A stretch of 64,000 nucleotides of DNA from Bacteroidota bacterium. GTDB taxonomy: Bacteria; Bacteroidota; Bacteroidia; Cytophagales; Cyclobacteriaceae. The stretch lies in NCBI GenBank assembly GCA_018267215.1, contig JAFDYX010000002.1:248001-312000 (forward strand), read 5' to 3'. Positions within the stretch are counted from its first letter, which is position 1, and the number at the start of each line of letters is the position of its first letter. The notes under the pieces were generated by a model that worked only from the letters and a program-made list of their open reading frames with translations, was not told where the DNA came from and did not search any database. Below, one piece after another: positions 2,322 to 48,877 of the stretch. A program made the translations under genes and the position numbers.

Positions 2322-5300
2322 TTATTTAATGATCAGCCGTTGTACGAAGCCTGTGTTTGTTCTGATGATGTACACACCCGAACTCAATGTTGATACGTTT
2401 ATCTGGCTGGCGTTGCTCACCGATAAAACCGGCTGACCTAATCCGTCATAGATAGTGGCCGATCCGGAAAAATTTGTACTCAATTTATCAGTCGAGGAAA
2501 CAGGATTAGGGTAGATCATAAAAGTAAATCCTATTCCTTTGTTTTCAACAGACGCAATGGCTACAACTGTTTCATGCTTATCAAAATCAGTTTGCTTGAG
2601 GCGGTAGTAGGAAATGCCGGGTAGCGGATTCTCATCTGCTAACGAGTAATCGGAAACGGCAGACGTTGTGCCTGCACCTTTCACCGTTGCTATCTTCTCA
2701 AAAGCGCTTCCATCAGGAGAGCGTTCGATTGTGAAGAAATCATTGTTTAACTCCGACTCGGTTTCCCACGTCAGTTTGGCAACGCCATTGTCGAGTGCTG
2801 CATTAAAATAATTAAGTGTAATAGGGAGCGGGTTTGCCAACGATGAGGAGGCCAACGCAAACGGGCTGAATGATGTAACCGCTGCCGATGATGTAACCGT
2901 GCCATTGGTAGCATTGCCTGTAGTGCTGCCATTTCCGTGGCTTACCCAGTTGGTTAAGTTCCAGCGGCCTACTAACAATTTCGTGATATCGGTGATGTAT
3001 GGCCCCGAACAATCGGGCGAGTTCCAGCTTAAGGTTACAAACACATTGGATGCACCCACGGTGCGGTTCAATATCCAATACTCACAACTGCTTACGGTTA
3101 ATATAGGAGACTGATAGGTAGAAGCCCCGCCATAGGCTTGTGCCCCTCTGAAAAACTGGGCGGTAAAGGCATCCGTACCTACTGACGGAGCGCTGATACC
3201 TATAGAACGATAAATGCCGGCAGTACCTACCGGGAAAATAAAGGCTTGATTTCCGGTTTTGCGTACCGGCCCATCTACGAAGCTGGCGTTAGAAGCCCCT
3301 GAGGTAGTAGCTCCGCTAATAAAATTCAAATAATTAACAGTTGATGACGTTAACACGCCTGTTGTAAAGGTGGCGCTGGCACCTACGTTTACAATCGTGT
3401 TTAAGTTGACTATGCCACCCGATGAGGTATTCATCACCATGCGGTTAATGGTTGGAACGGCCGATCCGGTAATAGAAATGTTTTGTGTTCCTCCGCTTCC
3501 GTTAAATGATACTACTCCGCTGTTCGCCCCAAATACCATGGCTACAGAAGAGTTAACCGTAACATTGCCGGCATACGTTGATGTATTAACATAAGCCGGT
3601 TGAATAGTGCCCGCGGTTTGATTGTAAGTAACGGCATTGGCAAACACATCGCCATTCGCACCTGCTTGCCTCAATATACCAATGTTGGTATTAGTGAAGG
3701 TAGCGGCAGCATTGAAAGTATTTCCGCCCACGCTACCATCGGTGGATGTACCTGTTTTGGTAAAAGAACTCGTGCCGTTAAACGTAGCTCCGTTCAATAA
3801 AATTCGTGGGGAGTTTACTGTCAGGTTTCCATTCCAAGTTGAGGAAGGGCCGGTTTGAAAGGTGGCAGACGTGCCGCCCAAAGTTAAGCTTTGTGGTGTA
3901 GCGCTGTTTTGTGTAAACCGTTGCAGCAATAATGTGCCTAATGTAAACCCACTGCCGCCCACCGAAATAGTTTTGCCTGCTGCCAGTGTGGCCGTACCAG
4001 ATGCGTTCTCGCAAAACCACACACCTGTGCCATTGGTAGAGTTAACAATGATATTGCCATTAAAAAAGTTGTTACCTATATATGCCACACGTACATAAGA
4101 TGAGCCTGTGTTGGTAAACGTTACATCGCCATTGTAAGTGCTGCCGGCAGATAATTCAAGTAACAGGTCTGCCGGTGAGTTATTGATAACAGAAGTTGTA
4201 CCGTTAAATGTATTATTTCCGTTCGTACGTAAATTACCAGAACTGGATAGTGCATTTGTAATAGTGGTAGTGGAAGCAAAAATATTGTTACCGGTACCTG
4301 TGTTACCACCGGCACCGTTTTTTGTTAATGATGCCGTTCCATTATAGGTGGCGCCATCCAAATACAACTGCGGTGATAAAAAGGATACATTTCCATTGAA
4401 GACTGAACTATTACCTATGCGCAAAGAAGCCGTGCCGGTAAGCGCCAGACTTTGTGCTGTTGAGCCTACTTGTGTAAACTGGTAAAATCTCAATTCGCCC
4501 GTTGAGAAGCCGGTTCCTCCAATGGAAACTGTTTTACCTGTTGCCATAGAAGAAGCACCACCGCTATTGCCAAAATAGATGCCTACACCATTATTGCAAT
4601 TAACAATGAGGTTGCCGTTAAACTGTGTGCCTGATGTGGTTTGCGACATGTAAATGGCAGAAGTTCCTGTATTGGTAAGTGTCAAGTCGCCATTAAAGGT
4701 ATCCAGCCCACTGCCCGCATTGATGAACTGGCCTGTGCCCGTGTTGGTAAACGAAGTGGCTAAATTAAAAATATTTCCTCCTTGGCTTGTGTCGTTGGTG
4801 CCGCCTGTCTTCGTTACACTCGCGGTGCCGTTGTAAGTGCAGCCATTCAGGTTGATGGTGGGTGTGGTAAAAACAATATTGCCATTGAAGGTAGAGCTGG
4901 GTCCTACTGTTAATGCCGCTACATTGGTCAATGTTAAAGTCTGTGCTGTACCCCCTACTTGTGTAAACCGCGGTAAACTAAGTGTGCCAAATGTAAACCC
5001 GCTGCCTCCAACCGAAATTGTTTTTGTGTTGGCTAATGTAACCGTGCCGGTTCCCTGATCGGAAAAATACACACCAATACCCGATGTACTATTGACTATT
5101 ATATTTCCATTAAATACGTTGGTGCCTGTGAAAGCTGCGCGTATGTATGACGAACCTGTATTGTTCATGGTTACATCGCCATTATAGGTGCTGCCTGTTG
5201 CCAATTCCAAAAGCAAGTCGGCACTACCGCTATTGGTCAGTGTGGTTGTACCGTTAAAGATATTGTTGCCATTAGTCCTGAGTTGAGCCGAGCCGCTGTT

Positions 5301-8300
5301 GACAATCGTGGTAGTTGAAGCGAATATATTGTTGCCTGCGCCATTGTTGTTCCCCGCTCCATTCTTTTCTAAATAAGCCGTACCGTTATAAGTACATCCA
5401 CTGAGAAGCAGTTGAGGTGCTATAAAGTTAACATTGCCATTGAATGTTGATGCCGGGCCAACTGTTAATGTCGCTACATTTGTTAAGGTTAGCGATTGCG
5501 GTGTTGACCCCAGTTGTGTAAACCTTGCAAGAATAAGGGCGCCAAACGAAAAACCAGAACTACCGACTGAGATAGTCTTGCCCGAGGCAAGGATAGATGT
5601 ACCTGATGTGTTAGTAGAGAAATAAACTCCGCTTCCAGAAGTGCTGTTGACGATGATATTGCCGTTGAACTGGTTGCCGGCTGAATTATAGCCTAAGTGA
5701 AGAATAGCACTGCCGGTATTGGTAAACGTAGCATCTCCATTAAAAATATCAGGAGAAGTATTTCCGGTCATTAAATAGCCACCACCTGAGCAAACTAACG
5801 TACAAGTGGAATTGAAGATATTTCCTCCATTGCCAACATTATTAGTCGCGCCATTTTTTTCGATGTAGGCCGTGCCATTATAAGTAGTGCCATTCAGGTT
5901 TACCTGCGGAGCTACAAAATTGACATTGCCATTAAAAGTAGAAGAAGAGCCAAGCGTTAAAAGTGCTGTGCCTGTCAGCGTCAGGTTTTGGGCGGTAGTG
6001 CCCATCTGAGTAAACTTCTGCAAAATCAACTGCCCGGTATTAAATCCTACACCCCCAGCCGAAATAGTTTTACTATTGGCAAGAATAGAAGTGCCGGATG
6101 CCGCTGACGAAAAATTAATGCCGTTTCCACCCGTGCAATTGACAATGATATTCCCATTGAACTGATTACCCGCTGAATTATATGCCGGGTAAATCCAGCT
6201 TGAGCCGGTATTGGTAAACGTTACATCGCCATTGAAAACATCTGGAAAAGAATTTCCCATCAGCAGATAATTGCTTCCGGAATTTACGATAGTCGTAGTT
6301 CCCTGAAATATGTTATTGCCGGTTCCGCCATCGTTGTTGGCTCCATTTTTTTCGATGTAGGCAGTGCCATTATAGGTGCATCCGTTGAGGAATACTCGCG
6401 GTGCCACAAAATTAACGTTACCGCCAAATGTAGTGTTAGACCCCACGGTTAAGCTGGCCGTACCCGTTAAAGTTAAGTTAACAGGTGCCGATCCGTTTTG
6501 TGTAAAATTCATGATGCTTAGTGCACCCGATGAATAACCTGCCATACCAATGGAAATTGTATAAGTAGCCGCCATGGTGGAGGTGCCCCCATTGTTACCA
6601 AAATAAATACCCGTTCCGGGGTTGGGCTGCGATACTATTACATTGCCATTAAACTGGGTGCCTGCCGCAGTGTACGCCAAATAGATATTGGAAGACCCTG
6701 TATTATTAACAGTGAGCGCCCCATTGAAAATATCCGGAGAGGAGTTGGATAGAAGAAAGTTGCCGGTGCCTGAGTTTACCAAAGTAACTGTTGAGTTGAA
6801 TGTGTTGCCGCCCGCACTGTTATTATTGCTGGCACCATTTTTTTCGATGTAGGCAGTGCCACTGTACACACAGCCATTCAGATATACCTGAGGCGCTATA
6901 AAATTAACGTTGCCACCAAGAGCAGAGCCGGGACCAACTGTAAGTGTTGAAGTTCCTGAGAATGTATTCAAGTTTATAGCCACTGAACCTTGCTGCGTGA
7001 ATCGTGGTAAAGTCAAACTCCCACCCGTATAACCAGCCCCTCCTATCGAAATGGTATTGCCTGCTGCCATTGTTGAACTGGCAGAAGCATTTATATTAAA
7101 ATTAATACCTGTTGCAGCTGCACTGTTGCTCACCACAATGTTGCCATTGTATGCAGAGGTGCCATTTACTCCCATCTGTATTTGTGTACCGGAGTTGCTG
7201 TTGGCTAGGTTAATAGTTACCGTTCCGGCAAAGGTGGCCGTTGTGCCTGTGCCATTCAATAAACGATAGTTACTTTGAATGCTGCCATTGCAATTGATCG
7301 TCAGGTTGCCACCAAAAGATATATTGGTATTAGTACCTTCAGCAATTAAATAAGACCAAGGATCAGCACCTCCTGATTTATTCGAATTAAGCGTTACATC
7401 TCCGGCAAACGTGGTGGTTTGCCCTGTATGGTTTTGGGCAATGTAAATGCGATAACTGCCTGTGTTATTAAAAGTAGTGGTAGCATTAAATTGATCGCGG
7501 TTGGTATTGCCAAAAAGTAAGTATCCACTACCACTGTTTTCAATGGTGGTTACTCCGTTAAAAATATTGCCACCGCTACCGTTATCATTGCTGGCTCCAT
7601 TCTTTTCTATATAAGCAGTGCCGCTATAAGTTGCCCCGTTTAACAATATACCCGGAGCTATAAAATTGACATTGCCCCCAAGGGCAGAGCCGGGGCCTAC
7701 CGTAAGCGTTGAAGTTCCGGTAAATGTATTCAAGTTTACAGCTACCGACCCCTGTTGCGTAAATCTTGACATCGCCAAGCTGCCACCGGTGAAGCCACCC
7801 CCACCTATTGAAATAGTATTGCCTGCAGTCATCGTTGAACTGGCCGAAGCATTTGTATTGAAAGCGATACCAGCAGCGGCTGCACTGTTGCTCACCACAA
7901 TGTTGCCATTGTATGTAGAGGTGCCATTTACTCCCATCTGTATTTGTGTACCGGAGTTGCTGTTGGCTAAGTTAATAGTTACTGTTCCGGCAAAGGTGGC
8001 TGTAGTACCAGTCCCTAGTAAAAAGCGATGATTGCTTTGCAATGCACCATTGCAGTTGATGGTGAGATTGCCACCAAAAGAAACATTGGTGTTTGTGTTT
8101 TCACAAATAAAATATGACCAGCCATCTACACCGCCCGATTTATTGGTATTGAGTGTTACATCACCGGCAAAGGTGGTCGTTTGCCCTGTATGGTTATGGG
8201 CAATGTAAATGCGATAACTGCCGGTATTATTAAAAGTAGCAGTAGCATTAAACTGATCGCTCATTGCATTTCCCAGATACAATGCTCCCGAACCGCTGTT

Positions 8301-9605
8301 GGTGATTGTTGTAGCTCCGTTAAAAATATTGCCACCGCTACCATAATCATTGCTGGCTCCATTCTTTTCTATGTAAGCAGTGCCGCTATAGGTTGCCCCG
8401 TTTAACAATATACCCGGAGCTATAAAATTGACATTGCCCCCAAACGCAGAACTGGGGCCTATCGCCAGGCCGGCCGTTCCAGAAAATGTATTTAGTGTTT
8501 GTGCTGTACTGCCAGATTGTGTAAACCTGGCAAGCGAAAGAGTACCACCCGTAAAGCCACCTACACCTATTGAAATAGTCCTCCCTGTGGCCAGTGTTGA
8601 ACTGGCAGAAGCATTTATATTAAAATTAATACCTGTTGCAGCTGCACTGTTGCTCACCACAACATTGCCATTGTATGCAGAGGTGCCATTTACTCCCATC
8701 TGTATTTGTGTACCGGAGTTGCTGTTGGCTAGGTTAATAGTTACCGTTCCGGCAAAGGTGGCCGTTGTGCCTGTGCCTTGCAAAAAGCGACAATTACTTA
8801 GAATACTGCCATTGCAATTAATAGTCAGGTTACCACCAAAAGAAACATTGGTGTTCCCTCCATCACAGATGAAATATGACCATCCATCAACACCGCCCGA
8901 CTTATTCGAATTAAACGTTACATCTCCGGCAAACGTGGTCGTTTGTCCTGTATGGTTTTGGGCAATAAAAATGCGGTAAGTGCCGGTATTATTAAAAGTA
9001 GTGGTAGCATTAAATTGATCGCGGTTGGTATTGCCAAAAAGTAAGTATCCACTACCATTGTTTTCAATGGTGGTTACTCCGTTAAAAATATTGCCACCGC
9101 TACCGTTATCATTCCCTGCTCCGGTCTTGGTTACATTTACAATTCCATTAAAAGTGCTGCCACTAAAATAGATGTCAGATGAAGATCCCGTAACATCCGC
9201 TCCCAACAAAGTACCATTAAATGTTACCGAGGTGGCATTCAAAGAAACCGAAGCACTCCCTCCTGTATTGGCCACAGTACCTTTAGTAAACATGGCCGTG
9301 CCTGTTACTGTCAGTATATTTCCACTCAGGTCAACTGTGCCGGTGTAGGCAGTAATCATACTGAAACCGCCCACAGTAGGTGCCATGTCGAGCGTACAAT
9401 TACCAGTTTTCCCTCCGGCTCCATCAAAAATAGCTACATCGCCCGCCCCCGGTACGGAAGCGCCACCGGCACCACCGGAGGCGGCTGACCAGTTTGCTGT
9501 ATTGTTCCAGTTGCTGGCTATGGCCGATACCCAATACCGGTTGGCTGCTAATCCCCCAAAAACTGTGAAAACAGTTAAAATGGATGTCAGTAGAATTCTT
9601 TTCAT
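2322..9605 (-). CDS. Giant repetitive secreted protein with T9SS C-terminal sorting domain
   Basis: 2427-residue predicted surface or secreted protein. Starting at the ATG at 9605 gives a clean signal peptide (MKRILLTSILTVFTVFGGLAA); an upstream in-frame start at 9629 would spoil it. The body is extremely rich in Gly, Asn, Thr and Ser, almost without Cys, and built from beta-strand-like repeats with recurring phrases such as GGNIFNG, TTTFNNTGS, YNGN and NGATYSGTAYIEKNGA, as expected of a parallel beta-helix or adhesin-like rod. Three 254-residue repeats dominate the N-terminal third, and shorter divergent units follow. The C-terminal 250 residues contain a NYF(N)A-LTWET-FFTIERSPDG module, then a type A T9SS sorting domain (IYPNP near the start, final SGVYIIRTNTGFVQRLIIK). 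Function is unknown: adhesion, gliding or matrix roles are possible inferences. Confidence 0.93.
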   Translation of the reverse strand: MKRILLTSILTVFTVFGGLAANRYWVSAIASNWNNTANWSAASGGAGGASVPGAGDVAIFDGAGGKTGNCTLDMAPTVGGFSMITAYTGTVDLSGNILTVTGTAMFTKGTVANTGGSASVSLNATSVTFNGTLLGADVTGSSSDIYFSGSTFNGIVNVTKTGAGNDNGSGGNIFNGVTTIENNGSGYLLFGNTNRDQFNATTTFNNTGTYRIFIAQNHTGQTTTFAGDVTFNSNKSGGVDGWSYFICDGGNTNVSFGGNLTINCNGSILSNCRFLQGTGTTATFAGTVTINLANSNSGTQIQMGVNGTSAYNGNVVVSNSAAATGINFNINASASSTLATGRTISIGVGGFTGGTLSLARFTQSGSTAQTLNTFSGTAGLAIGPSSAFGGNVNFIAPGILLNGATYSGTAYIEKNGASNDYGSGGNIFNGATTITNSGSGALYLGNAMSDQFNATATFNNTGSYRIYIAHNHTGQTTTFAGDVTLNTNKSGGVDGWSYFICENTNTNVSFGGNLTINCNGALQSNHRFLLGTGTTATFAGTVTINLANSNSGTQIQMGVNGTSTYNGNIVVSNSAAAAGIAFNTNASASSTMTAGNTISIGGGGFTGGSLAMSRFTQQGSVAVNLNTFTGTSTLTVGPGSALGGNVNFIAPGILLNGATYSGTAYIEKNGASNDNGSGGNIFNGVTTIENSGSGYLLFGNTNRDQFNATTTFNNTGSYRIYIAQNHTGQTTTFAGDVTLNSNKSGGADPWSYLIAEGTNTNISFGGNLTINCNGSIQSNYRLLNGTGTTATFAGTVTINLANSNSGTQIQMGVNGTSAYNGNIVVSNSAAATGINFNINASASSTMAAGNTISIGGAGYTGGSLTLPRFTQQGSVAINLNTFSGTSTLTVGPGSALGGNVNFIAPQVYLNGCVYSGTAYIEKNGASNNNSAGGNTFNSTVTLVNSGTGNFLLSNSSPDIFNGALTVNNTGSSNIYLAYTAAGTQFNGNVIVSQPNPGTGIYFGNNGGTSTMAATYTISIGMAGYSSGALSIMNFTQNGSAPVNLTLTGTASLTVGSNTTFGGNVNFVAPRVFLNGCTYNGTAYIEKNGANNDGGTGNNIFQGTTTIVNSGSNYLLMGNSFPDVFNGDVTFTNTGSSWIYPAYNSAGNQFNGNIIVNCTGGNGINFSSAASGTSILANSKTISAGGVGFNTGQLILQKFTQMGTTAQNLTLTGTALLTLGSSSTFNGNVNFVAPQVNLNGTTYNGTAYIEKNGATNNVGNGGNIFNSTCTLVCSGGGYLMTGNTSPDIFNGDATFTNTGSAILHLGYNSAGNQFNGNIIVNSTSGSGVYFSTNTSGTSILASGKTISVGSSGFSFGALILARFTQLGSTPQSLTLTNVATLTVGPASTFNGNVNFIAPQLLLSGCTYNGTAYLEKNGAGNNNGAGNNIFASTTTIVNSGSAQLRTNGNNIFNGTTTLTNSGSADLLLELATGSTYNGDVTMNNTGSSYIRAAFTGTNVFNGNIIVNSTSGIGVYFSDQGTGTVTLANTKTISVGGSGFTFGTLSLPRFTQVGGTAQTLTLTNVAALTVGPSSTFNGNIVFTTPTINLNGCTYNGTASVTKTGGTNDTSQGGNIFNLATSFTNTGTGQFINAGSGLDTFNGDLTLTNTGTSAIYMSQTTSGTQFNGNLIVNCNNGVGIYFGNSGGASSMATGKTVSIGGTGFSTGELRFYQFTQVGSTAQSLALTGTASLRIGNSSVFNGNVSFLSPQLYLDGATYNGTASLTKNGAGGNTGTGNNIFASTTTITNALSSSGNLRTNGNNTFNGTTSVINNSPADLLLELSAGSTYNGDVTFTNTGSSYVRVAYIGNNFFNGNIIVNSTNGTGVWFCENASGTATLAAGKTISVGGSGFTLGTLLLQRFTQNSATPQSLTLGGTSATFQTGPSSTWNGNLTVNSPRILLNGATFNGTSSFTKTGTSTDGSVGGNTFNAAATFTNTNIGILRQAGANGDVFANAVTYNQTAGTIQPAYVNTSTYAGNVTVNSSVAMVFGANSGVVSFNGSGGTQNISITGSAVPTINRMVMNTSSGGIVNLNTIVNVGASATFTTGVLTSSTVNYLNFISGATTSGASNASFVDGPVRKTGNQAFIFPVGTAGIYRSIGISAPSVGTDAFTAQFFRGAQAYGGASTYQSPILTVSSCEYWILNRTVGASNVFVTLSWNSPDCSGPYITDITKLLVGRWNLTNWVSHGNGSTTGNATNGTVTSSAAVTSFSPFALASSSLANPLPITLNYFNAALDNGVAKLTWETESELNNDFFTIERSPDGSAFEKIATVKGAGTTSAVSDYSLADENPLPGISYYRLKQTDFDKHETVVAIASVENKGIGFTFMIYPNPVSSTDKLSTNFSGSATIYDGLGQPVLSVSNASQINVSTLSSGVYIIRTNTGFVQRLIIK
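6830..9115. repeat. Three tandem 762-bp intragenic repeats
   Basis: Within the giant T9SS gene, the same block recurs with an exact period of 762 bp (254 codons). For example, the string gtgccatttactcccatctg starts at 7159, 7921 and 8683. Many stretches of more than 50 bp look identical or nearly so between copies, while others differ at synonymous sites. Outer limits are approximate. The period is a multiple of three, so loss or gain of a copy would keep the frame. Confidence 0.9.
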
Positions 9606-9626
9606 AGATACTATTTCCCTATGTTG

Positions 9627-9634
9627 CAAAAATA
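9627..9634 (-). promoter_or_regulatory. Putative -7 box TATTTTTG for the T9SS gene
   Basis: The minus strand reads TATTTTTG, a full match to the Bacteroidota -7 consensus TAnnTTTG, 22 bases before the chosen ATG at 9605. I see no good -33 TTTG at the usual 19-21 bp distance, so this rests on the -7 match alone. Confidence 0.4.
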
Positions 9635-9761
9635 CTTTTATCCATTCATATAAAGTTTCTCTTCATCTGAAAAATATGTTCCAAAATGCAGCTTATTGTA
9701 ACCAATTTCTGCCACTTACGTCTATTTACCATTGTTATTGAATATCCCTTATTAATAAACC

Positions 9762-10481
9762 ATGCCCAAAATCATCGAAACCCACCACATTGCCCGCTCT
9801 TATAAAATGGGCGACAACATTGTAAATGCCCTTCAGGATATCTCAATTTCTATTGACAAAGGAGAGTATGTGGCTTTTATGGGGCCTTCGGGTTCGGGCA
9901 AATCTACGCTGATGAACATCGTTGGCTGTTTAGATACTCCCTCCAGCGGCTCTTACATATTAAACAATCAGGTGGTGAGCGAAATGACCGAAAACGAATT
10001 GGCGGTAGTTCGCAACAAAGAAATCGGATTTGTGTTTCAAACTTTTAACCTGCTGCCGCGTGCCAGCGCGCTGGAAAACGTGGCCCTCCCCCTCATCTAT
10101 GCGGGCTACAACAAAGAAGACCGCGAAGAGATGGCCATGGCTGCGCTAACCAATGTTGATTTAGGCAACCGCTGGCACCACAAGCCCAACGAACTATCGG
10201 GTGGGCAGCGCCAGCGTGTAGCCATCGCCCGGGCGTTGGTAAACAATCCTTCCATTATATTGGCCGATGAGCCCACGGGAAATCTCGACTCTAAAACCTC
10301 CTACGACATCATGAACTTGTTTCAAAATTTGCACGACAAGGGAAATACCATCATCATGGTAACGCACGAAGACGACATTGCCCACTATGCGCACCGCATC
10401 ATCCGCCTGAAGGATGGCTTGATTGAGTGGGATCGCAAAAACGAAAACGTAAACCGGGGCGAGCCGGTGGCCGCTCACTAA
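9762..10481 (+). CDS. ABC transporter ATP-binding protein, LolD/MacB type
   Basis: 239-residue ATPase of the LolD/MacB/FtsE-like group. It has Walker [10 protein letters not shown] (residues 41-49), Q-loop Gln93, signature LSGGQ (145-149), Walker B IILADE with catalytic Glu170, and H-loop His202. It would power a FtsX/MacB-type permease in lipoprotein export or efflux of large or hydrophobic compounds. No permease gene is adjacent: the neighbours are the divergent T9SS gene and cobalamin adenosyltransferase. The nearest MacB-like permease in the window is at 51643-54339, over 40 kb away, so pairing is only a guess. Confidence 0.93.
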
Positions 10482-10546
10482 GGCAACTTGCTATTTACCA
10501 GTCTGATTTCTGTGTAATACGTACCCGATTACTTTGCGAATAGCAT

Positions 10547-10554
10547 TACCTTTG
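10547..10554 (+). promoter_or_regulatory. Putative -7 box TACCTTTG upstream of the adenosyltransferase gene
   Basis: TACCTTTG matches TAnnTTTG perfectly and ends 14 bases before the ATG at 10569. No convincing -33 element is seen at the expected spacing. It would make the adenosyltransferase gene independent of the ABC ATPase gene upstream. Confidence 0.4.
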
Positions 10555-10568
10555 GCTATTCGTACAAC

Positions 10569-11117
10569 ATGAAAATTTACACCAAAACGGGAGACCAGGG
10601 CACCACAGCATTGTTTGGCGGCAAGCGTTTGCCCAAATCTGATTTGCGCATTGATGCCTACGGAACGGTAGATGAATTAAATTCTTTTTTGGGTTTGGTG
10701 CGCGACCAGCCTATCAACACCGGGCGGAAAGAAATATTGACAGAAATACAAGACCGTCTTTTCACCATCGGCTCCATCTTGGCTACCGACCCGGCCAATA
10801 CTAAAGTAAAAATCCCTTCGCTGGCAGAAGACGACATCAAGTTTTTAGAAAATGAAATTGATAAAATGGACGCAGCCCTTCCTGCCATGAAACATTTTGT
10901 GCTGCCGGGCGGCCATGCTTCAGTTTCCATAACACATGTTACCCGAACAGTGTGCCGAAGAGCCGAGCGGCTGGTGGTTGCCTTAGCGCACTCCGTGCCT
11001 GTAGATCCGCTCGTCATCAAGTACCTGAACCGTTTATCAGATTTTCTCTTTGTGCTGAGCCGCCTGATGGCGCAAGAACTGAATATAACAGAATCGCCCT
11101 GGCTTCCGAAAATGTAG
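10569..11117 (+). CDS. Cob(I)alamin adenosyltransferase, PduO/MMAB type
   Basis: 182-residue ATP:cob(I)alamin adenosyltransferase, forming the Co-C bond of adenosylcobalamin for enzymes such as methylmalonyl-CoA mutase. The N-terminal KIYTKTGDQGTT motif, which binds ATP, and the YGTVDELNSFLG helix are typical, as is the RTVCRRAERLVV helix with its conserved arginines and glutamate. The length fits the PduO catalytic domain with no extra heme-binding module. It is followed 55 bp later by a cyclophilin gene, which has its own promoter-like sequence. No cobalamin riboswitch is apparent upstream. Confidence 0.94.
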   Translation: MKIYTKTGDQGTTALFGGKRLPKSDLRIDAYGTVDELNSFLGLVRDQPINTGRKEILTEIQDRLFTIGSILATDPANTKVKIPSLAEDDIKFLENEIDKMDAALPAMKHFVLPGGHASVSITHVTRTVCRRAERLVVALAHSVPVDPLVIKYLNRLSDFLFVLSRLMAQELNITESPWLPKM

Positions 11118-11118
11118 C

Positions 11119-11151
11119 CTTGCCTGAACCCCATGAAAGTCTGTACCTTCG
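11119..11151 (+). promoter_or_regulatory. Putative promoter of the cyclophilin gene
   Basis: CTTG at 11119-11122, 21 bases of spacer, then TACCTTCG at 11144-11151. This is one mismatch from the TTTG-N19/21-TAnnTTTG promoter of Bacteroidota, 22 bases before the ATG at 11173. It overlaps the very end of the preceding gene by position only. Confidence 0.4.
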
Positions 11152-11172
11152 TCCCTCAAAATAATTAACGAC

Positions 11173-11613
11173 ATGACAACCGCAGAAATCCACACCAAAA
11201 AAGGTGTAATGAAAATCCAGTTCTTCGAAGAAGATGCACCCAATACAGTAAAAAATTTTATTGCGTTAGCCGAAAAGGGATTTTATGATGGCCTCACGTT
11301 TCACCGCGTCATCCCCAATTTTATGATACAGGGCGGCTGCCCCAATGGCATAGGCAATGGCGGGCCGGGCTACACCATCAACTGCGAGTTAACAGGAAAA
11401 AATCAATACCACGACCGCGGTGTTATTTCTATGGCACATGCCGGCCGAAACACTGGCGGCTCTCAGTTTTTTATCTGCCACACCCGCCAAACTACTGCCC
11501 ACCTCGACCGCAACCATACCGTGTTTGGCAAAGTGTATGAAGGCTTGGAAGTGATTGATGCCATCCGCGCAGGCGATGTCATGGAGAAAGTAGTGATCAA
11601 AAAAGAAGGATAA
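11173..11613 (+). CDS. Peptidyl-prolyl cis-trans isomerase, cyclophilin type
   Basis: 146-residue single-domain cyclophilin catalysing proline cis-trans isomerisation. [13 protein letters not shown] holds the catalytic Arg, Phe, Met and Gln. GGSQFFI and [11 protein letters not shown] are the other active-site blocks; the Trp of cyclosporin-sensitive forms is absent, as in many small bacterial cyclophilins. There is no signal peptide, so it is probably cytoplasmic. Confidence 0.95.
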
Positions 11614-11700
11614 CTTACATGGCAGGATTATGAAATAAAAAAAATCCTAAGTTTAAGCCGTTTGTAGCTGGTGCCATGGTAAGACACAAACTGAAAAATA

Positions 11701-12348
11701 ATGAAATGGATTTATTTTATAGTAGTCGTTTTTCTGATTAGCATTGTTTGGCTGGTTTATGAAATCCATGCCGTTGACAGCAAATATAGCCGGCTGATTG
11801 AAGATGAAAGCCACCGGCTGCTCTTAGTGAGGAAGGCCACCGCTAACGCTAACCGCAGGCATATTTTATTATTTCATACTGCTCATACTTCGGATACTTC
11901 TAGACGTGCGAAATTGATTCATGAAATGAAGCAGATAGACCAAGCTAATTCTATTATTTACGACAGCTTGTTAAACGTTAGTTCGGGTGCACCTCAACTG
12001 ACACATGCAGTAAACAATGTTATCGAAGCGCGAAAGCGATACCACATCATAGAATCTCAATACACCCACGAAATACTTTCCTCGCCCAAGTCGCTTATCA
12101 ACGAACAGATTGAGCAGCAATTGGATTCAGTCTTTGTCAACTACCAAAACAGTATTTCTAATTTGTTTATGGCAAAAGACAAGTACATTCTTTCCTTAAG
12201 CGACCAGTTCACTTCAGAGACAAGAACAACCTCATCTGTCATCGGAGCTTTTTTGGCCTTGCCTGTCATAGTCGTGCTCTTGCTCACCGGAACATTGATG
12301 ATGCTGGTACACCGTTTGGTTTCGCCATTCCGTTCAGAGCCGAAGTAG
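11701..12348 (+). CDS. Membrane protein with an extracytoplasmic helical domain, function unknown
   Basis: 215 residues: one N-terminal transmembrane helix (about 4-21), about 155 residues of charged, heptad-like helix-forming sequence, and a second transmembrane helix (about 182-204) followed by only a short basic tail (LVSPFRSEPK). This is the topology of a four-helix-bundle chemoreceptor-type sensor domain (4HB_MCP-like), but there is no HAMP, kinase or signalling domain behind it. I recognise no specific family. It ends 1 bp from the convergent nuclease gene. Confidence 0.75.
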   Translation: MKWIYFIVVVFLISIVWLVYEIHAVDSKYSRLIEDESHRLLLVRKATANANRRHILLFHTAHTSDTSRRAKLIHEMKQIDQANSIIYDSLLNVSSGAPQLTHAVNNVIEARKRYHIIESQYTHEILSSPKSLINEQIEQQLDSVFVNYQNSISNLFMAKDKYILSLSDQFTSETRTTSSVIGAFLALPVIVVLLLTGTLMMLVHRLVSPFRSEPK

Positions 12349-12349
12349 C

Positions 12350-13114
12350 TTACTTGCCATAAATTTGATTTAACAAACCGGCCAGCCTGATGCCGGCCTT
12401 CGCCAGTTGATCTTTTACCGTGCCAAAATTTTTGTAGCTGTACTTATAGCTTAAGTTTCCATCGCCAATGGCATAGACCTGCGTGCGCAAAGACATGGAT
12501 TCATTGACCCAATCATTCACGGTAGCTTTTTGCAAGGCAACAATGTTGGCTGAAGAATAATCGGAAAATGCTGCGAGTTCAGTAAAGCTCAGTTTCGTGT
12601 CGTCTATCATCTCGCTGTCCCACACACGGTGCAGGTTCGAATCTTTTCTAAACCATTTTACCTTCACTTTGTTGCCGCCCTGATCATCGCAGCAGCCCAC
12701 ATGCAGTGGCTGATGGATGTCGCCCACCAGATGTACCAGCATCTTCAGGTATTCGGCTTCTTTTTTTGCATCCAGATTGTGTTGCTTCAGTGCCGCTACG
12801 ATGCGGTGGATGGTTTCGATTACATCGCCATGAGGATTTTTGGGCGACTGCTCGTAGGTCTTTCCGGTTTCAATAGTTACCCAGTGCCAATCGACCGTGT
12901 TGTCGTACGAAGAATCCGACCGGATTTCATCCATCCACGGGCCTGCTTCGGCCAGCGATTGCCTGCCTAATATTTTTTCAATATTTTTTTTGGCTTTGGC
13001 CGTCAGGTGTTTCTCTGCAATGAGCCCCACAGCACGGTGGCCGGTGGCGCCCCACCCCCAACACAAGGTAGTTGACAGTACTGCGAAAAAACAAAATATC
13101 ACCGTTGTTTTCAT
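12350..13114 (-). CDS. Secreted S1/P1-family nuclease
   Basis: 254-residue zinc-dependent single-strand nuclease/phosphatase. The ATG at 13114 (rather than 13135) gives a signal peptide ending ...CWG, with the mature protein beginning at the Trp of WGATGH. In this family the N-terminal Trp and nearby His bind zinc. Further zinc ligands are visible in TVDWHWV, HLVGDIHQPLH and HRVWD. The length is close to that of P1/S1-type enzymes. It is likely periplasmic or secreted, scavenging nucleic acids. The promoter region is shared with the divergent RMD1 gene. Confidence 0.93.
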   Translation of the reverse strand: MKTTVIFCFFAVLSTTLCWGWGATGHRAVGLIAEKHLTAKAKKNIEKILGRQSLAEAGPWMDEIRSDSSYDNTVDWHWVTIETGKTYEQSPKNPHGDVIETIHRIVAALKQHNLDAKKEAEYLKMLVHLVGDIHQPLHVGCCDDQGGNKVKVKWFRKDSNLHRVWDSEMIDDTKLSFTELAAFSDYSSANIVALQKATVNDWVNESMSLRTQVYAIGDGNLSYKYSYKNFGTVKDQLAKAGIRLAGLLNQIYGK

Positions 13115-13208: not shown

Positions 13209-13991
13209 ATGAAAACAATAAAAATTTCTGCGTTGCTGGTGGCCAATCAATTAGACATGAAAGGGATTAAAGCCTTTCTGGACTTAAAGCCGTTAGCCGA
13301 CACTTCGTCTGAGTTGCTCTACGGCTTTGGTGGCGATAAGTACCAATACTATTTTAATTACGGAGTGGTGGTGTTTGCCGGCCATTCGGATGACGAAATA
13401 AAAGTAGCTGTACGCACCATCATGCCATACCAGAAAAGCCCCAACCCACAATGGCTGCGCGATGACCACGAGATCAGCATACAGGACGGAGAAATGTTAT
13501 TTGAGTTTGACCATGTGGTAGTAAACCGACTGGACGACAAAGTACTGCGTATCGCTATGTTTAACTTAGCCCAGTCGGTGGCGCTGGATTATTACCACAG
13601 TGTTTCAGAAAACCTGTTGACGGAAATACGCGGCTTCTCGCGCGACCTGGAAACTTCCGGCACGCTGAACATCAACCGCACCAACATGCTCAAGTTTATC
13701 GGAAAAGCATTGAACACCCAAAACGACATTGCCGACAACATTTATATTTTCGATGCCCCCGACCAGGTGTGGGACGATGAGTATCTCGACAAACTGCACA
13801 AAGGGCTGATGAGGCATTTTGACCTGCGCCTGCGTTTCAGCGAAATTGAATATACCCTTCGCATCATAGAAGATAACCTGAGCATCTTCCGCGAGATTTC
13901 TAACCAACGCACCAGCACCATGTTAGAGTGGATCATCATCATCCTTATTTTAGTGGAGGTGCTCAACTTATTCATTTCTAAAATTCTGTAA
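13209..13991 (+). CDS. RMD1/YagE family (DUF155) protein
   Basis: 260-residue protein of the RMD1/Sif2 (DUF155) family, whose biochemical activity is unknown; eukaryotic members act in mitochondrial and microtubule-related processes. Matching features are the N-terminal KISALLVANQLDMKGI, the mid-protein VVVFAGHSDDE segment, an FDHVVV/ FNLAQSVALDYYHS region, a long helical part (about 130-235) and one C-terminal transmembrane helix (LEWIIIILILVEVLNLFIS). The frame is open back to 12897, but that extension overlaps the divergent nuclease gene, so the ATG at 13209 is preferred. The gene starts a co-directional run and ends 8 bp before the C39 peptidase gene. Confidence 0.88.
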   Translation: MKTIKISALLVANQLDMKGIKAFLDLKPLADTSSELLYGFGGDKYQYYFNYGVVVFAGHSDDEIKVAVRTIMPYQKSPNPQWLRDDHEISIQDGEMLFEFDHVVVNRLDDKVLRIAMFNLAQSVALDYYHSVSENLLTEIRGFSRDLETSGTLNINRTNMLKFIGKALNTQNDIADNIYIFDAPDQVWDDEYLDKLHKGLMRHFDLRLRFSEIEYTLRIIEDNLSIFREISNQRTSTMLEWIIIILILVEVLNLFISKIL

Positions 13992-13999
13992 AGCAGGAT

Positions 14000-14734
14000 A
14001 TGTCTAACCGACACAATTTTTTTCTGAACTTCGATATTGAGGCGCAACCCGATGACACCACCTGCGGCCCTACTTGTTTGCATGCCCTCTATCAATACTA
14101 CCGCGATAGCATTTCGCTCAAAGAAGTTATCAATGAAGTGAAGAGCTTAAAAACCGGAGGCACGCTGGCGGTGATGCTGGGCAACCATGCCTTAAAGCAC
14201 GGGTACAATGCACACATCTACACCTACAACTTAAATATTTTTGACCCCTCCTGGTTTTCGCAATCCTCGCAGCAGATGGTAACCAACTTAAAAAAGCAAA
14301 TGCGCTACAAGTTCAGGAGCAAACGCCTGCAGGTGGCTACCAAAGCCTACATCAAATTTTTAGAGGCCGGAGGAAAATTATTGTTGAGCGAACTCGATGA
14401 GGCGCTCATCAAAAAATACTTGCGCAAATCTACCCCCATATTGACCGGGCTGAGCGCCACCTATCTCTATGGCAACATGCGCGAAATTCCGCACAACAAT
14501 AAGTTCGACAGCATCCGGGGCGAGCCGGTCGGCCATTTTGTAATCATCAACGGATTTGATGAGGCCACCAATCTGGTGTACCTGGCAGACCCCATGAACC
14601 CCAACCCACTGAAAAGCCAATACTATAATGTAACTTTTGACAGACTCATCAATAGCATCATGCTGGGCATAGTAACCTACGATGCCAACCTGCTGGTGAT
14701 CGAACCCAAGAAAACTAATTTGAAAATCATCTGA
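14000..14734 (+). CDS. Papain-like C39-family cysteine peptidase
   Basis: 244-residue C39-like peptidase. Gln16 (oxyanion), catalytic Cys22 in TTCGPTC, His179 in PVGHFVIINGF and Asp197 in YLADPMNP form a complete papain-type active site. Unlike bacteriocin exporters there is no ABC transporter and no transmembrane segment, so it is probably a stand-alone cytoplasmic peptidase or amide-bond transferase. Known gene-neighbourhood analyses of RLAN-domain ATP-grasp ligases report papain-like peptidases next to them, usually fused to a GNAT acetyltransferase; no GNAT part is present here. The next gene begins 96 bp downstream. Confidence 0.87.
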   Translation: MSNRHNFFLNFDIEAQPDDTTCGPTCLHALYQYYRDSISLKEVINEVKSLKTGGTLAVMLGNHALKHGYNAHIYTYNLNIFDPSWFSQSSQQMVTNLKKQMRYKFRSKRLQVATKAYIKFLEAGGKLLLSELDEALIKKYLRKSTPILTGLSATYLYGNMREIPHNNKFDSIRGEPVGHFVIINGFDEATNLVYLADPMNPNPLKSQYYNVTFDRLINSIMLGIVTYDANLLVIEPKKTNLKII

Positions 14735-14830
14735 TTTGATAATTTGAAAATGAAAACTCCAACCATTAATTTCTTACGGTTAAATTCTGAAATTTTAAAT
14801 CTTCAAATTAAAGTAGTTCCAAATTAGCGT

Positions 14831-16279
14831 ATGCCTAAGCTCATTGTAGTTGAAAAACCTGAAACATGGAATTTCCGCATTGAAGATGTAGAAGTAGTGT
14901 CGGCCGACCGCTACATTGCCGATGAGCAATTTCAAACGGTAAAAAATCTGAAGCTGCTCAATCTCTGCAAATCGTATCAATACCAAAGCGAAGGATATTA
15001 TGTGTCGCTGCTGGCCGAAGCGCGCGGCCACAAAGTGCTACCCGAAGTTTCAACCATTCAGGATATGCGCTTTCCTTCCATCCTGCGCGAAGATTCGCTG
15101 GACTTTGATTTGCTGATTCAGAATACTTTCAAGACTGAAACTGTAGATCGGGTGGAGTTCAACGTATATTTTGGGAGCGCACCGGCCGAAAACCTCAGCC
15201 GCCTGGCACAGCAACTTTTCCAGATGGTGCAGGCTCCTTCGCTCCGGGCTGTCTTCTCGCATAAAAACAAGTGGCGTTTGCAAAGCATCAGGCCTATCAA
15301 CTTAAATGAGGTACCCGAAGCCGACAGGCCACTGCTCATTTCTTCGTTAGAAAAATATTTGTTGCGCAAGCGCGACTTCCGCCCCGACAAAAAAAAATAC
15401 GACCTGGCCATCCTCACCAATGCAGAAGATAAAAATCCGCCTTCTGACGACCGCGCCCTGAAGCGGTTCTATCGCGCCTCGCTAGAAGCAGGTTTCAACA
15501 CGGAGTTCATCACCAAAAACGATATAGACAAACTCATTCAATACGATGCGCTCTTCATCCGCGAAACTACCAACGTTAACCACCACACTTTTCGGTTTGC
15601 AAAAAAAGCACAGTCGCTGGGGCTGGCCGTCATAGACGACCCCGATTCAATTTTAAAATGCACCAATAAAGTTTACCTGCACGAGTTGCTGAACACCCAC
15701 AAAATTCTAACTCCTCAGTCCATTGTTATCTCTGAAGAAACCTGCGATGCCATTTCTCAGAAGATGTCTTTTCCTTTTATTTTAAAACAACCCGATGGCG
15801 CTTTTTCTAAGGGTGTTTATAAAATTGAATCGGAAAAAGAATTTAAAAATGTGCGGGCTACTATGTTTGCCAAATCAGATTTGTTGGTGGCTCAGGAATT
15901 TCTGCCGACAAAATTCGACTGGCGTGTGGGCGTGATTGACGGGCAAGTGATTTATGTTTGTAAATATTTTATGGCCACTAAGCATTGGCAGATTATCAAC
16001 TGGGGAGCCAACAAACAAAAATCGCGCGAAGGCGAAGTGGAGTGCATACCCGTTGATCAGGCTCCGAGCGGCTTGCTGAAGACAGCCCTGAAAGCCACGT
16101 CATTGATCGGAACCAGTTTGTATGGAGTAGATATGAAAGAAGTGGATGGAAAATTTTATGTCATTGAAATCAACGATAACCCTAACATAGATGCGGGCAT
16201 TGAAGACAAAATTTTGAAAGACCGTTTGTATGGCATCGTCATGGAAGTATTTTTAAATAAAATCAAACAAATAAAATGA
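14831..16279 (+). CDS. RimK-type ATP-grasp ligase with N-terminal RLAN domain
   Basis: 482-residue ATP-grasp enzyme. Residues 1 to about 190 (starting LIVVEKPETWNF, with YYVSLLAEARGHKVLP) correspond to the RLAN domain found fused to RimK-like ligases. About 200-480 is the ATP-grasp fold: FPFILKQPDGAFSKGV (ATP-binding lysine and loop), LLVAQEFLPTKFDWRVGV, and the metal-binding VIEINDNPNIDAG near the C terminus. Such enzymes join a carboxylate to an amine with ATP hydrolysis; RimK relatives add glutamate or other amino acids. The substrate here is unknown. The gene overlaps GCS2 by ATGA, implying coupled translation. Confidence 0.93.
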   Translation: MPKLIVVEKPETWNFRIEDVEVVSADRYIADEQFQTVKNLKLLNLCKSYQYQSEGYYVSLLAEARGHKVLPEVSTIQDMRFPSILREDSLDFDLLIQNTFKTETVDRVEFNVYFGSAPAENLSRLAQQLFQMVQAPSLRAVFSHKNKWRLQSIRPINLNEVPEADRPLLISSLEKYLLRKRDFRPDKKKYDLAILTNAEDKNPPSDDRALKRFYRASLEAGFNTEFITKNDIDKLIQYDALFIRETTNVNHHTFRFAKKAQSLGLAVIDDPDSILKCTNKVYLHELLNTHKILTPQSIVISEETCDAISQKMSFPFILKQPDGAFSKGVYKIESEKEFKNVRATMFAKSDLLVAQEFLPTKFDWRVGVIDGQVIYVCKYFMATKHWQIINWGANKQKSREGEVECIPVDQAPSGLLKTALKATSLIGTSLYGVDMKEVDGKFYVIEINDNPNIDAGIEDKILKDRLYGIVMEVFLNKIKQIK

Positions 16280-17511
16280 GCCAACGATTGCATTTATTTC
16301 AGGGATACGGTATTGAGTTGGAGTACATGGTGGTAGATCGTACCACGTTGGCCATAAAACCGGTAGTAGATGAATTGCTGAAACAAGAGCTCGGTGCCAT
16401 CGGAGGAGATTTTGAAAACGGCATGGTAACGTGGAGCAACGAACTGGTGCTGCACGTGGTGGAGTTGAAATCTACCAAGCCCGAACAAAATTTCAATGCA
16501 CTGGAAAACGAATTTGTTGACAACATCCAACGCATCAACAAACATTTGGAAAAATGGAATGCAGTGCTGATGCCTACAGCCGCACACCCACTGATGAACC
16601 CGTTGACAGAAACGAAACTGTGGCCGCACGACAATAATGAAGTCTATCACCTATACGATAAAATTTTTAGTTGCCAAGGGCATGGATGGAGCAACTTGCA
16701 AAGTACTCATTTGAATCTACCTTTTTACGATGACGAAGAGTTTGCCAAACTCCATGCTGCCATCAGGCTGGTGCTTCCGCTCCTTCCGGCATTGTGTGCC
16801 AGCTCACCGATTTTGGAAGGGAAAATAACCGGGTTAAGCGACACGCGGTTAACTTTTTATAAAACGAATCAGGCAAAAATTCCTTCCATCACCGGGCGTA
16901 TTATTCCCGAGGCTGTTTTCTCCAAGCGCAACTACATCAACACCATTTACGAAAAAATAAAAACAGATATTCAGCCGCACGACCCCACCGGTATTTTGGA
17001 TCCAATTTGGGTAAACTCGCGCGGAGCCATTCCCCGCTTCGATCGCGGCTCCATTGAAATACGCATCATGGACGTGCAGGAGTGTCCGGCCGCGGATCTG
17101 GCCATTCAGGCATTGGTGATTGAACTACTCAAAGCTTTGGTGTCGGAGCGGTTCATCTCAATGGACGAGCAGGTGAAAACCAAAACCGATACTTTAGTTA
17201 CTGTTTTTAACAACTGTGTAGAACACGGTATGAATGCTGAAATTACAACAGCAGAATACTTGTCTGTTTTTGGCGAAACCCATCCGCTATCAGCACAGCA
17301 GTTTTGGAAAAAAATAATTGAACGCCTCATTGCTGTTTCGCCCTCTTTGGCAGCATGGAAAAAACCGGAATTGGAAACTCTCATTACCAATGGTAACCTG
17401 AGCGACCGTATCTTGCTGTCGCTGGGCTCTGATACGTCAGAAGAAAAAATAAAAAATACCTACAGACGGTTGTGCGATTGCCTCGCTCAGAATAAAATGT
17501 TTCTGCCTTAG
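16276..17511 (+). CDS. GCS2-family carboxylate-amine ligase
   Basis: 411-residue glutamate-cysteine ligase-like protein (GCS2/YbdK group), expected to form a gamma-glutamyl or similar amide bond using ATP. Diagnostic blocks are GYGIELEYMVVD at the N terminus (metal-binding acidic residues), SCQGHGWSNLQSTHLNLPF, LPALCASSPILEGK, and SIEIRIMDVQECPAAD with the conserved arginine/acidic cluster. It starts inside the stop codon of the RLAN/ATP-grasp gene. Together with the C39 peptidase this makes a small amide-bond-forming cassette. It is not an ordinary glutathione pathway: no GshB follows. Confidence 0.9.
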   Translation: MSQRLHLFQGYGIELEYMVVDRTTLAIKPVVDELLKQELGAIGGDFENGMVTWSNELVLHVVELKSTKPEQNFNALENEFVDNIQRINKHLEKWNAVLMPTAAHPLMNPLTETKLWPHDNNEVYHLYDKIFSCQGHGWSNLQSTHLNLPFYDDEEFAKLHAAIRLVLPLLPALCASSPILEGKITGLSDTRLTFYKTNQAKIPSITGRIIPEAVFSKRNYINTIYEKIKTDIQPHDPTGILDPIWVNSRGAIPRFDRGSIEIRIMDVQECPAADLAIQALVIELLKALVSERFISMDEQVKTKTDTLVTVFNNCVEHGMNAEITTAEYLSVFGETHPLSAQQFWKKIIERLIAVSPSLAAWKKPELETLITNGNLSDRILLSLGSDTSEEKIKNTYRRLCDCLAQNKMFLP

Positions 17512-17519
17512 CTGATTGT

Positions 17520-47968: not shown

Positions 47969-48877
47969 ATGAATATCGCCATCCTCTCACGCGATGCCAA
48001 GTTGTACTCTACACGCAGGCTCAAAGAAGCCGGTGAAGAGCGCGGCCACAACGTAGAGATTATAGACCACATGAAGTGCGTGCTGTTGATCGAAAAGAAA
48101 AACCCGATGGTTTGGTACAAAGGCCGCAAGCTGGATTATTTTGATGCTATCATCCCGCGCATTGGCGCTTCGGTTACCTTCTATGGGGCAGCCGTGGTAC
48201 GGCAATTTGAGATGATGAAAGTTTTCTCTGCGATAGAATCACAGGCATTAATCCGCTCGCGCGATAAGTTGAGGAGCTTACAAATATTGTCGCGTGCGGG
48301 CTTAGACTTGCCCAAAACCATCTTCATGGACTACACCAAAAACACCGAAGGGATTATTGAAGCCGTAGGTGGGGCACCGGTGGTCATTAAATTGCTGGAG
48401 GGCACACAGGGCTTGGGTGTAGTGCTGGCCGAAAATAAAAAAGCAGCCCAGTCAGTCATCGAAGCTTTTCATGGTGTGAGGGCGCGGATCATTGTGCAAG
48501 AATTTATTAAAGAAGCCAAAGGGGCAGACATACGTGCTTTTGTGGTAAACGGAGAAGTAGTAGGCGCCATGCGCAGACAAGCACGCGATGGCGAGTTTCG
48601 CAGCAACCTGCACCGTGGGGGCTATGCTTCGGTAGTAAAGTTAGACCGCCACCAAAAGCACGCGGCCATTACGGCAGCCAAAAAAATGGGGCTCGGCATA
48701 GCCGGTGTAGATATGCTGCCCAGCAAGCGCGGGCCACTGATTATTGAAGTCAATTCATCGCCCGGCCTGGAAGGAATAGAAGGCGCCACGAAGGTAGATA
48801 TAGCCGGAAAAATTTATCAATACATTGAACAGCACGCAGGCACAAAAAAAATCCAAAAGGATAAAGTCAATGCGTGA
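47969..48877 (+). CDS. rimK: RimK-family ATP-grasp ligase (ribosomal protein S6-glutamate ligase)
   Basis: 302 residues, close to E. coli RimK. The N-terminal domain ([41 protein letters not shown]) is followed by ATP-grasp elements [38 protein letters not shown] and metal-binding [17 protein letters not shown]. It adds glutamates to the C terminus of ribosomal protein S6 and can make poly-glutamate. It is coupled to rimB upstream (2 bp gap) and its TGA overlaps a GTG of the DUF1801 frame. This is the second RimK-like ligase of the window and lacks the RLAN domain of the one at 14831. Confidence 0.94.

Follow-up and report, generated by a model that had tools for sequence, protein, structure and literature searches.

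Four genes lie close together on one strand in the genome of a Cyclobacteriaceae bacterium (assembly GCA_018267215.1, contig JAFDYX010000002.1), encoding an RMD1/DUF155 protein, a C39-like papain-fold enzyme, a ligase that joins an RLAN domain to an ATP-grasp domain and a GCS2-family ligase, and they raise the question of which of them work together and what they might make. A sequence-only reading of the window (the whole stretch analyzed, 64,000 nucleotides, contig positions 248,001 to 312,000) had proposed an amide-bond or peptide-making pathway comprising all four. We find that C39, the RLAN-ATP-grasp ligase and GCS2 belong together as a conserved gene set whose active-site residues are invariant, and because of this conservation an amide-bond or peptide-making pathway is a sensible reading for the triad; RMD1, however, is probably not part of it. 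The proposal is thus supported for three genes and not for the fourth. Coordinates, Pfam matches (all above the curated cut-offs) and the letters at the junctions confirmed the four open reading frames (ORFs), their families and the spacings that had been claimed, i.e., 8 bp from RMD1 to C39, 96 bp from C39 to RLAN and an ATGA overlap (-4) from RLAN to GCS2. The locus reads as follows:

13209-13991, + strand: DUF155/RMD1 gene, 260 amino acids (aa) from an ATG; DUF155 Pfam match, E 8.9e-30.
14000-14734, + strand: C39-like papain-fold enzyme, core gene 1, 244 aa; Peptidase_C39_2, E 9.4e-12; without a GNAT domain.
14831-16279, + strand: RLAN-ATP-grasp ligase, core gene 2, 482 aa; RLAN, E 4.3e-43, and RimK, E 8.1e-12.
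16276-17511, + strand: GCS2-family carboxylate-amine ligase, core gene 3, 411 aa; GCS2, E 1.7e-27.
17512-17519, no strand: gap of 8 bp between GCS2 and an HhH gene, the site of an FGase-like gene (PF05013; N-formylglutamate amidohydrolase type) in the sister locus L136.

RLAN (PF14401) was surveyed in the window's family, where 34 of 98 genomes carry it, and in the phylum (44 of 395 genomes); a third, named set came from a scan of a species-level genome collection and holds the best 80 of at least 582 relatives, a choice that leans towards the window's own type. We extracted the stretches around 33 loci from the family and another 40 from the phylum, omitting the window's own locus and three phylum matches already taken, called ORFs mechanically, assigned them by profiles built from the window proteins and then counted gene order. 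Phylum counts refer to 39 loci with an RLAN gene, the fortieth (L132) being a broken match, and the three sets share a few genomes (e.g., L070 and L143). Of the family loci, 32 of 33 show C39-RLAN-GCS2 in this order on one strand, as do 23 of 39 in the phylum set and 66 of 80 in the named set, with median internal gaps of -4 to +3 bp. Among the best 80, the triad occurs in at least 14 named phyla and in two loci without a phylum name; outside Bacteroidota its records are mostly metagenome bins. Since the same three genes recur in order in so many genomes, the arrangement in the window lies far beyond chance, and the expectation that C39 is conserved beside RLAN-GCS2 pairs was borne out. The only family exception has RLAN alone (L067), the phylum exceptions comprise 12 RLAN genes fused to GNAT, three loci from family f7 that lack C39 and one locus with a GNAT-C39 protein (L131), and the 14 named exceptions lie at contig edges (L195, for instance, stops at one), lack C39 or GCS2, or have a GNAT gene (L208). 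The window's genome (3.38 Mb, 35 contigs) holds a single RLAN match, one GCS2 of the cassette type and a second, more typical GCS2 elsewhere. Among the matches listed, the nearest RLAN proteins share 79-80% identity with the window's and belong to records labelled Cytophagales, Cyclobacteriaceae, Flammeovirgaceae or Bacteroidetes, while those of Chryseolinea share 66-70%; these matches place the window in the same part of Bacteroidota. One locus labelled Rickettsiales (L153) matches Marinoscillum pacificum (L154) in how the operon is arranged; its genome is probably misbinned.

The catalytic residues of the triad are equally constant. The complete Gln-Cys-His-Asp site that had been assigned to the papain-like protein is indeed there, and Gln16, Cys22, His179 and Asp197 are all identical in 122 of 122 aligned homologues (six of 128 matches, outside 200-300 aa, were omitted). 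In the ligase, the RLAN domain (about residues 26-169) scores 147 bits against a cut-off of 25 and the RimK domain 45.6 against 21, which identifies an RLAN-ATP-grasp fusion; within the ATP-grasp part (about residues 278-454), K280, K319, R365, D434, E446 and N448, which we take to be the ATP and metal residues of the core, are kept in 139-140 of 140 proteins (15 of 155 matches were dropped by length) and are among the invariant columns of a 28-row alignment. GCS2 scores 97 bits against a cut-off of 21, in keeping with its family, although the solved GCS2 proteins are no more than remote relatives (E 0.046 and 0.059); 14 of 15 positions are conserved in 127 of 127 homologues and R263 in 124 of 127 (4 of 131 matches were dropped by length). 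Its GIELE motif (residues 12-16; G12, E14 and E16 invariant) fits the GhExE signature, which an excerpt of PMC2588565 ties to gamma-carboxylate-amine ligases. The predicted conservation of active sites thus holds throughout the triad.

The AlphaFold model of the C39 protein has a predicted local distance difference test score (pLDDT) of 92.9, and the Gln-Cys-His-Asp site and papain-like fold place it in the papain-like C39 family (PF13529). Foldseek matched the model to P210 CD lyase, PeiR (an endoisopeptidase, E 3.4e-5), PCAT1, ComA and the phytochelatin synthase Alr0975 (E 2.6e-4), whereas a profile search of solved sequences returned C39-type peptidases only. The resemblance to phytochelatin synthase is one of fold, as the protein gave no match to that family (PF05023) at E 0.001. 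NCBIfam gave no match for the C39 and FGase proteins of locus L140.

A fourth gene frequently follows the triad. An FGase-like gene stands directly after GCS2 in 27 of 32 family, 15 of 23 phylum and 42 of 66 named triads, and in the family 27 of the 35 genomes with an FGase other than the HutG type (a label applied in this analysis) also have RLAN (n = 98; p 5e-11, ignoring phylogeny); before five genomes with weaker matches were added, the same test gave 27 of 30 (p 1.6e-14, likewise ignoring phylogeny). The nearest solved relative of these FGase proteins is Atu2144 (2odf; E 6e-39). The sister locus L136 runs RMD1-C39-RLAN-GCS2-FGase-HhH-helicase, exactly the window's order save for the FGase gene (L136 9686-10372) inserted between GCS2 and HhH. 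In the window, HhH begins 8 bp after GCS2, and the cassette is missing the gene that normally comes next; the genome's single FGase match (E 5.0e-66) is on a different contig and scores like the relatives' HutG-type genes. The congeners G017 and G094 also lack an FGase-like cassette gene. FGase is dispensable, since the window does without it and 24 of 66 named triads do not have it as the gene next to GCS2. The partner is a new addition of this analysis, absent from the earlier reading; it is reportedly also missing from the network described by Iyer et al. in 2009, and among the open-licence papers found by the literature searches, none dealt with this combination, to judge by title and abstract, or described the operon together with an FGase-like partner. 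In L092, C39-RLAN-GCS2-FGase is followed by a second set (9381-12395) of a glutathione-synthetase-like ATP-grasp protein (PF02955, PF02951) and an FGase-MATCAP protein (PF08014) split over two overlapping ORFs; hence, FGase-like domains accompany two different ATP-grasp ligases there. L176 encodes an FGase-like protein (9705-10964) with an extra C-terminal part weakly like HD_4, below cut-off.

Starting from the gene content, order, conservation and intact catalytic residues observed directly, we postulate that the triad may make and turn over a small cytosolic amide-linked glutamate conjugate with a two-ligase logic like that of glutathione, a reading whose chances we put just short of even. 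The steps are inferred from family chemistry, by analogy with GshA/GshB and phytochelatin synthase. GCS2 would phosphorylate the gamma-carboxylate of glutamate and couple it to an amine, giving a gamma-glutamyl-capped compound, and the RLAN-ATP-grasp ligase would activate a carboxylate and form a second amide bond. C39 would then act on an amide or isopeptide bond of this product, cleaving or transferring it by way of a cysteine acyl-enzyme in the manner of phytochelatin synthase with gamma-Glu-Cys-Gly, and optionally the FGase-like hydrolase would cut an N-acyl-glutamate bond for recycling. The earlier idea of a glutamyl or amino-acid conjugate is kept, by analogy, for the two ligases and C39; RMD1 is dropped from it, and the FGase-like gene had been missed.

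Several observations weigh against the postulated conjugate pathway. RLAN was the bait of the survey, so that its own constancy is uninformative. The three f7 loci have the order RLAN-GCS2-FGase without C39, and such a C39 was absent anywhere in those genomes in a search with two positive controls; in the named set, L196, L197, L198 and L200 have C39-RLAN with no GCS2 nearby, and L171, L179 and L204 have neither C39 nor GCS2 nearby. Moreover, GCS2 scores 19-46 bits with the NCBIfam glutamate-cysteine-ligase models, against cut-offs of 249-437, and does not qualify as a true GshA; with scores so far below, its acceptor, and even glutamate as the donor, are only putative. For C39, the Foldseek TM-scores are only about 0.4-0.5, the list is headed by an entry with the title P210 CD lyase, and ordinary transporter peptidases (PCAT1) do as well as the transferase, so that the fold match does not separate transfer from hydrolysis.

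The same family resemblances could indicate that the operon supplies the cell with its own low-molecular-weight thiol, glutathione. Like glutathione synthesis coupled to phytochelatin synthase, the window combines two ATP-dependent ligases, one of the GCS2 family, recalling GshA and GshB, with a papain fold similar to that of Alr0975. In contrast to that system, its ATP-grasp ligase is RLAN/RimK-like, the C39 protein lacks a PF05023 match and the host has BshC, the last enzyme of bacillithiol synthesis, found in the window's genome and in 10 of 11 relatives. GshB was not found in the genome by a GSH-S_ATP profile search, the sole match being a RimK-like gene at 47969-48877, and the glutamate-cysteine-ligase scores point the same way. 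Hence, a host that has BshC and in which no GshB was found is unlikely to use this operon as a glutathione route; we rejected this explanation and regard it as highly improbable.

Alternatively, the ligases might attach glutamate or a small peptide to a protein, as RimK does on ribosomal protein S6 and PafA with Pup, with C39 and FGase removing the modification. RimK, LysX and ArgX act on protein or carrier-protein ends, and the ATP-grasp domain of the window ligase is nearest to RimK, LysX, ArgX and Ddl (RimK and LysX by sequence alignment, Ddl and ArgX by fold); the model of the ligase (pLDDT 82.8) matches Ddl, ArgX/LysX and RimK folds in its ATP-grasp part. With RimK, LysX and ArgX the window ligase shares the ATP-grasp core and its catalytic residues, but it differs from them in its N-terminal RLAN domain, which none of 14 sequence matches covers (all begin at profile position 235 or later), and on the acceptor side. 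The Thr/Ser-Asn...Arg-Gly-Gly stretch is the acceptor-side stretch of the RimK/LysX/ArgX alpha-L-glutamate ligases; it is not present in the window ligase, where the hWiTNtarGG stretch of LysX is replaced by HWQI, with H385 and W386 kept in 140 of 140 proteins and Q387 in 139 of 140. The ligase scores 77.6 bits with the NCBIfam model rimK_fam, below its cut-off of 143.4. Given this unlike acceptor side, its partner is probably not the one that RimK or LysX uses. The window's RimK-like ligase at 47969-48877 (+ strand) keeps SNLHRGG and looks canonical. Protein modification would also be in keeping with the endoisopeptidase-like fold of C39 and with the derivation of the Pup ligase from GCS2, as given in an excerpt of PMC2588565. 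The window's operon gaps (8, 96, -4 and 8 bp), however, fit no tag gene longer than about 30 codons, and no extra gene recurs among the clustered neighbour ORFs, a count that covers ORFs of at least 80 aa and leaves room for a smaller tag elsewhere; nor did this clustering reveal a recurrent ORF of the kind expected for a ribosomally synthesized and post-translationally modified peptide. We thus consider protein modification unlikely.

RLAN ligases occur with two kinds of partner. An RLAN-type GNAT was detected at 14 of 152 RLAN loci and GCS2 at 129, with no overlap between the two groups; 9 loci had neither partner (Fisher 4e-14, ignoring phylogeny; the GNAT search used one query in phmmer at E 1e-8). 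The 14 GNAT loci are the 12 fused ones, L131 and L208. A wider profile, built from these GNAT domains and used at E 0.01, found a GNAT-family gene in two GCS2 loci, on the opposite strand within three genes upstream of RLAN in L175 and farther off in L184. Triad-type GCS2 was present in none of 14 genomes, thirteen with GNAT-type loci and G023, in searches with positive controls, and the sole weak C39 match in these genomes was the GNAT-C39 gene of G249 itself. This near-exclusion is an addition of our analysis. The twelve fused GNAT-RLAN-ATP-grasp proteins (L113, L119-L122, L124-L130; 642-718 aa) have no adjoining C39 or GCS2. The earlier claim that the window's peptidase has lost a GNAT fusion did not survive: 122 of 128 C39 matches, at 200-300 aa, are too short for an added GNAT, two of the other six (L159, L196) are longer with no GNAT-like sequence by eye, four are fragments, and GNAT loci form a separate class without GCS2. 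We therefore rejected a loss in this window, the absence of GNAT being normal for GCS2-type loci. The window C39 protein gave no PF11814 (DUF3335) or GNAT match at E 0.001 and is not a GNAT-DUF3335 protein; L131 and L223 carry both domains. A first quick tree (62 rows) needed at least two GNAT/GCS2 exchanges; in a second (44 rows, 7 of them GNAT; among the rows omitted were L226, missed by the selection motif, L093, L225, L128, L130 and those lacking a partner), a single GNAT clade was not rejected by an approximately unbiased (AU) test (p 0.365). Two independent exchanges were thus not upheld, as one fits too.

Part of this picture is not new. Iyer et al. (2009, in Mol BioSyst) are said to have described a contextual network of RLAN, GNAT-papain and GCS2 proteins and to have proposed a role in peptide synthesis, so that RLAN has reportedly been connected with GCS2 and papain-like peptidases in print before. 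The window resembles that network in combining an RLAN-ATP-grasp ligase with a papain-like enzyme and GCS2, but it has GCS2 without GNAT, and RMD1 is only a local companion. The GNAT-DUF3335 part of the network is mentioned in an excerpt of PMC10318531. Plasmid matches comprised 12 records, 7 of them from Azospirillum (one examined in detail). The examined Azospirillum locus and a Tistrella locus have GNAT-DUF3335 and RLAN with no GCS2 in the stretch, an Aeromonas locus carries a GNAT gene on the opposite strand, and a Pseudomonas aeruginosa plasmid (L224 4902-6491) has a stand-alone RLAN ligase with neither GNAT nor GCS2, near pagP and a gene for a short-chain dehydrogenase/reductase. Six phage records matched in the ATP-grasp part only.

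The triad also recalls the operon for N-acetylglutaminylglutamine amide (NAGGN; Ngg, AsnO and a peptidase), in which, according to an excerpt of PMC8070244, a GNAT/ligase protein is likewise paired with a peptidase in a short operon of capping enzyme, amide ligase and peptidase. The RLAN operon might thus produce a compatible solute of this kind, an N-capped amide-linked dipeptide under osmotic stress with a gamma-glutamyl (GCS2) or acetyl (GNAT) cap and a papain-fold recycling peptidase. The nearly exclusive use of GNAT and GCS2 as RLAN partners would be consistent with this, and the GNAT part of the L131 GNAT-C39 protein is weakly like N-acetylglutaminylglutamine synthetase (38 bits, where the cut-off is 569). 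Moreover, in 12 loci (L069, L075, L081, L084, L086, L089, L091, L092, L145, L146, L149 and L150), all within the window's wider lineage, the gene immediately before C39 encodes a sigma factor, which makes stress control possible. Unlike the NAGGN operon, however, the window has GCS2 in place of GNAT and a ligase that carries RLAN, and this ligase has no match to the NAGGN synthetase model (TIGR03103) at E 0.001. No AsnO-type Pfam match was found among the seven window proteins scanned, and no asparagine-synthetase-like gene was seen by eye among the 25 commonest neighbour clusters. The hosts, which include rumen and horse-faeces Fibrobacter, groundwater bins and marine strains, also speak against an osmotic role, and we regard a compatible solute as rather unlikely. 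The sigma-factor gene cluster occurs in 25 loci (Pfam Sigma70 on one member, L070) and an S1/P1-nuclease-like gene in 20, and both neighbours look like lineage synteny.

It had further been suggested that RMD1, whose protein has a hydrophobic C-terminal stretch (judged by eye), is a fourth part of the pathway and tethers it to the membrane. In several related genera a short gap does indeed separate RMD1 from the triad directly downstream, and of the 98 family genomes 18 carry DUF155, 15 of which also have RLAN (p 4e-6, uncorrected and ignoring phylogeny). Most triads, however, lack it: of the 32 triads in the family set, 7 have RMD1 directly upstream, the corresponding figures being 1 of 23 for the phylum set and 9 of 66 for the named set; within a few genes it occurs in 10, 1 and 11 loci, respectively. 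Apart from L212, the RMD1-adjacent triads all belong to the window's wider lineage. This locus (Vicinamibacteraceae) has a distant RMD1-like gene upstream and is a possible distant second case, but its protein has no Pfam match at E 0.001 and aligns to the window RMD1 over the last ~85 residues only, at the C-terminus. Conversely, three family genomes (G033, G044, G074) keep RMD1 beside the S1/P1-nuclease-like gene with no triad, in G033 in the order S1/P1-nuclease-like gene, RMD1, FGase, and neither RLAN nor cassette-type GCS2 was found in them; in G007, G027, G061 and G088, RMD1 lies away from the cassette. The claim that RMD1 is conserved beside RLAN-GCS2 pairs thus fails, and we rejected it as a pathway part on this distribution, despite the high co-occurrence of DUF155 with RLAN; a four-gene pathway is, in our view, very unlikely. 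An inherited syntenic neighbour is the simplest reading. An excerpt of PMC7564844 places human RMND1 in mitochondrial translation, a role that offers no link to a ligase pathway. Co-transcription of RMD1 with the cassette is possible. The mechanical ORF list holds a longer GTG reading of RMD1 from 12897. A scan for promoters and terminators gave fewer sites than in shuffles. Elsewhere in the window, the minus strand (2322-9629) encodes a 2435-aa protein with many similar blocks (e.g., GGNIFNG stretches), as judged by eye.

Our collective results suggest that the triad, with its three or four compact genes, its conserved active sites and its spread over many phyla, probably makes a metabolite used by many bacteria. 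With FGase as the usual next gene, the product would be expected to contain an N-acyl-glutamate bond, and the exclusion of GNAT and GCS2 predicts which group the amine carries. We speculate, as a possibility rather than a probability, that RLAN ligases are central to modular pathways for N-capped amide-linked metabolites, with an exchangeable cap (acetyl from GNAT or gamma-glutamyl from GCS2), shared papain-fold trimming or transfer, and an FGase-like hydrolase for the glutamyl version. If so, a gamma-glutamyl metabolite with no relation to glutathione would be widespread among bacteria.

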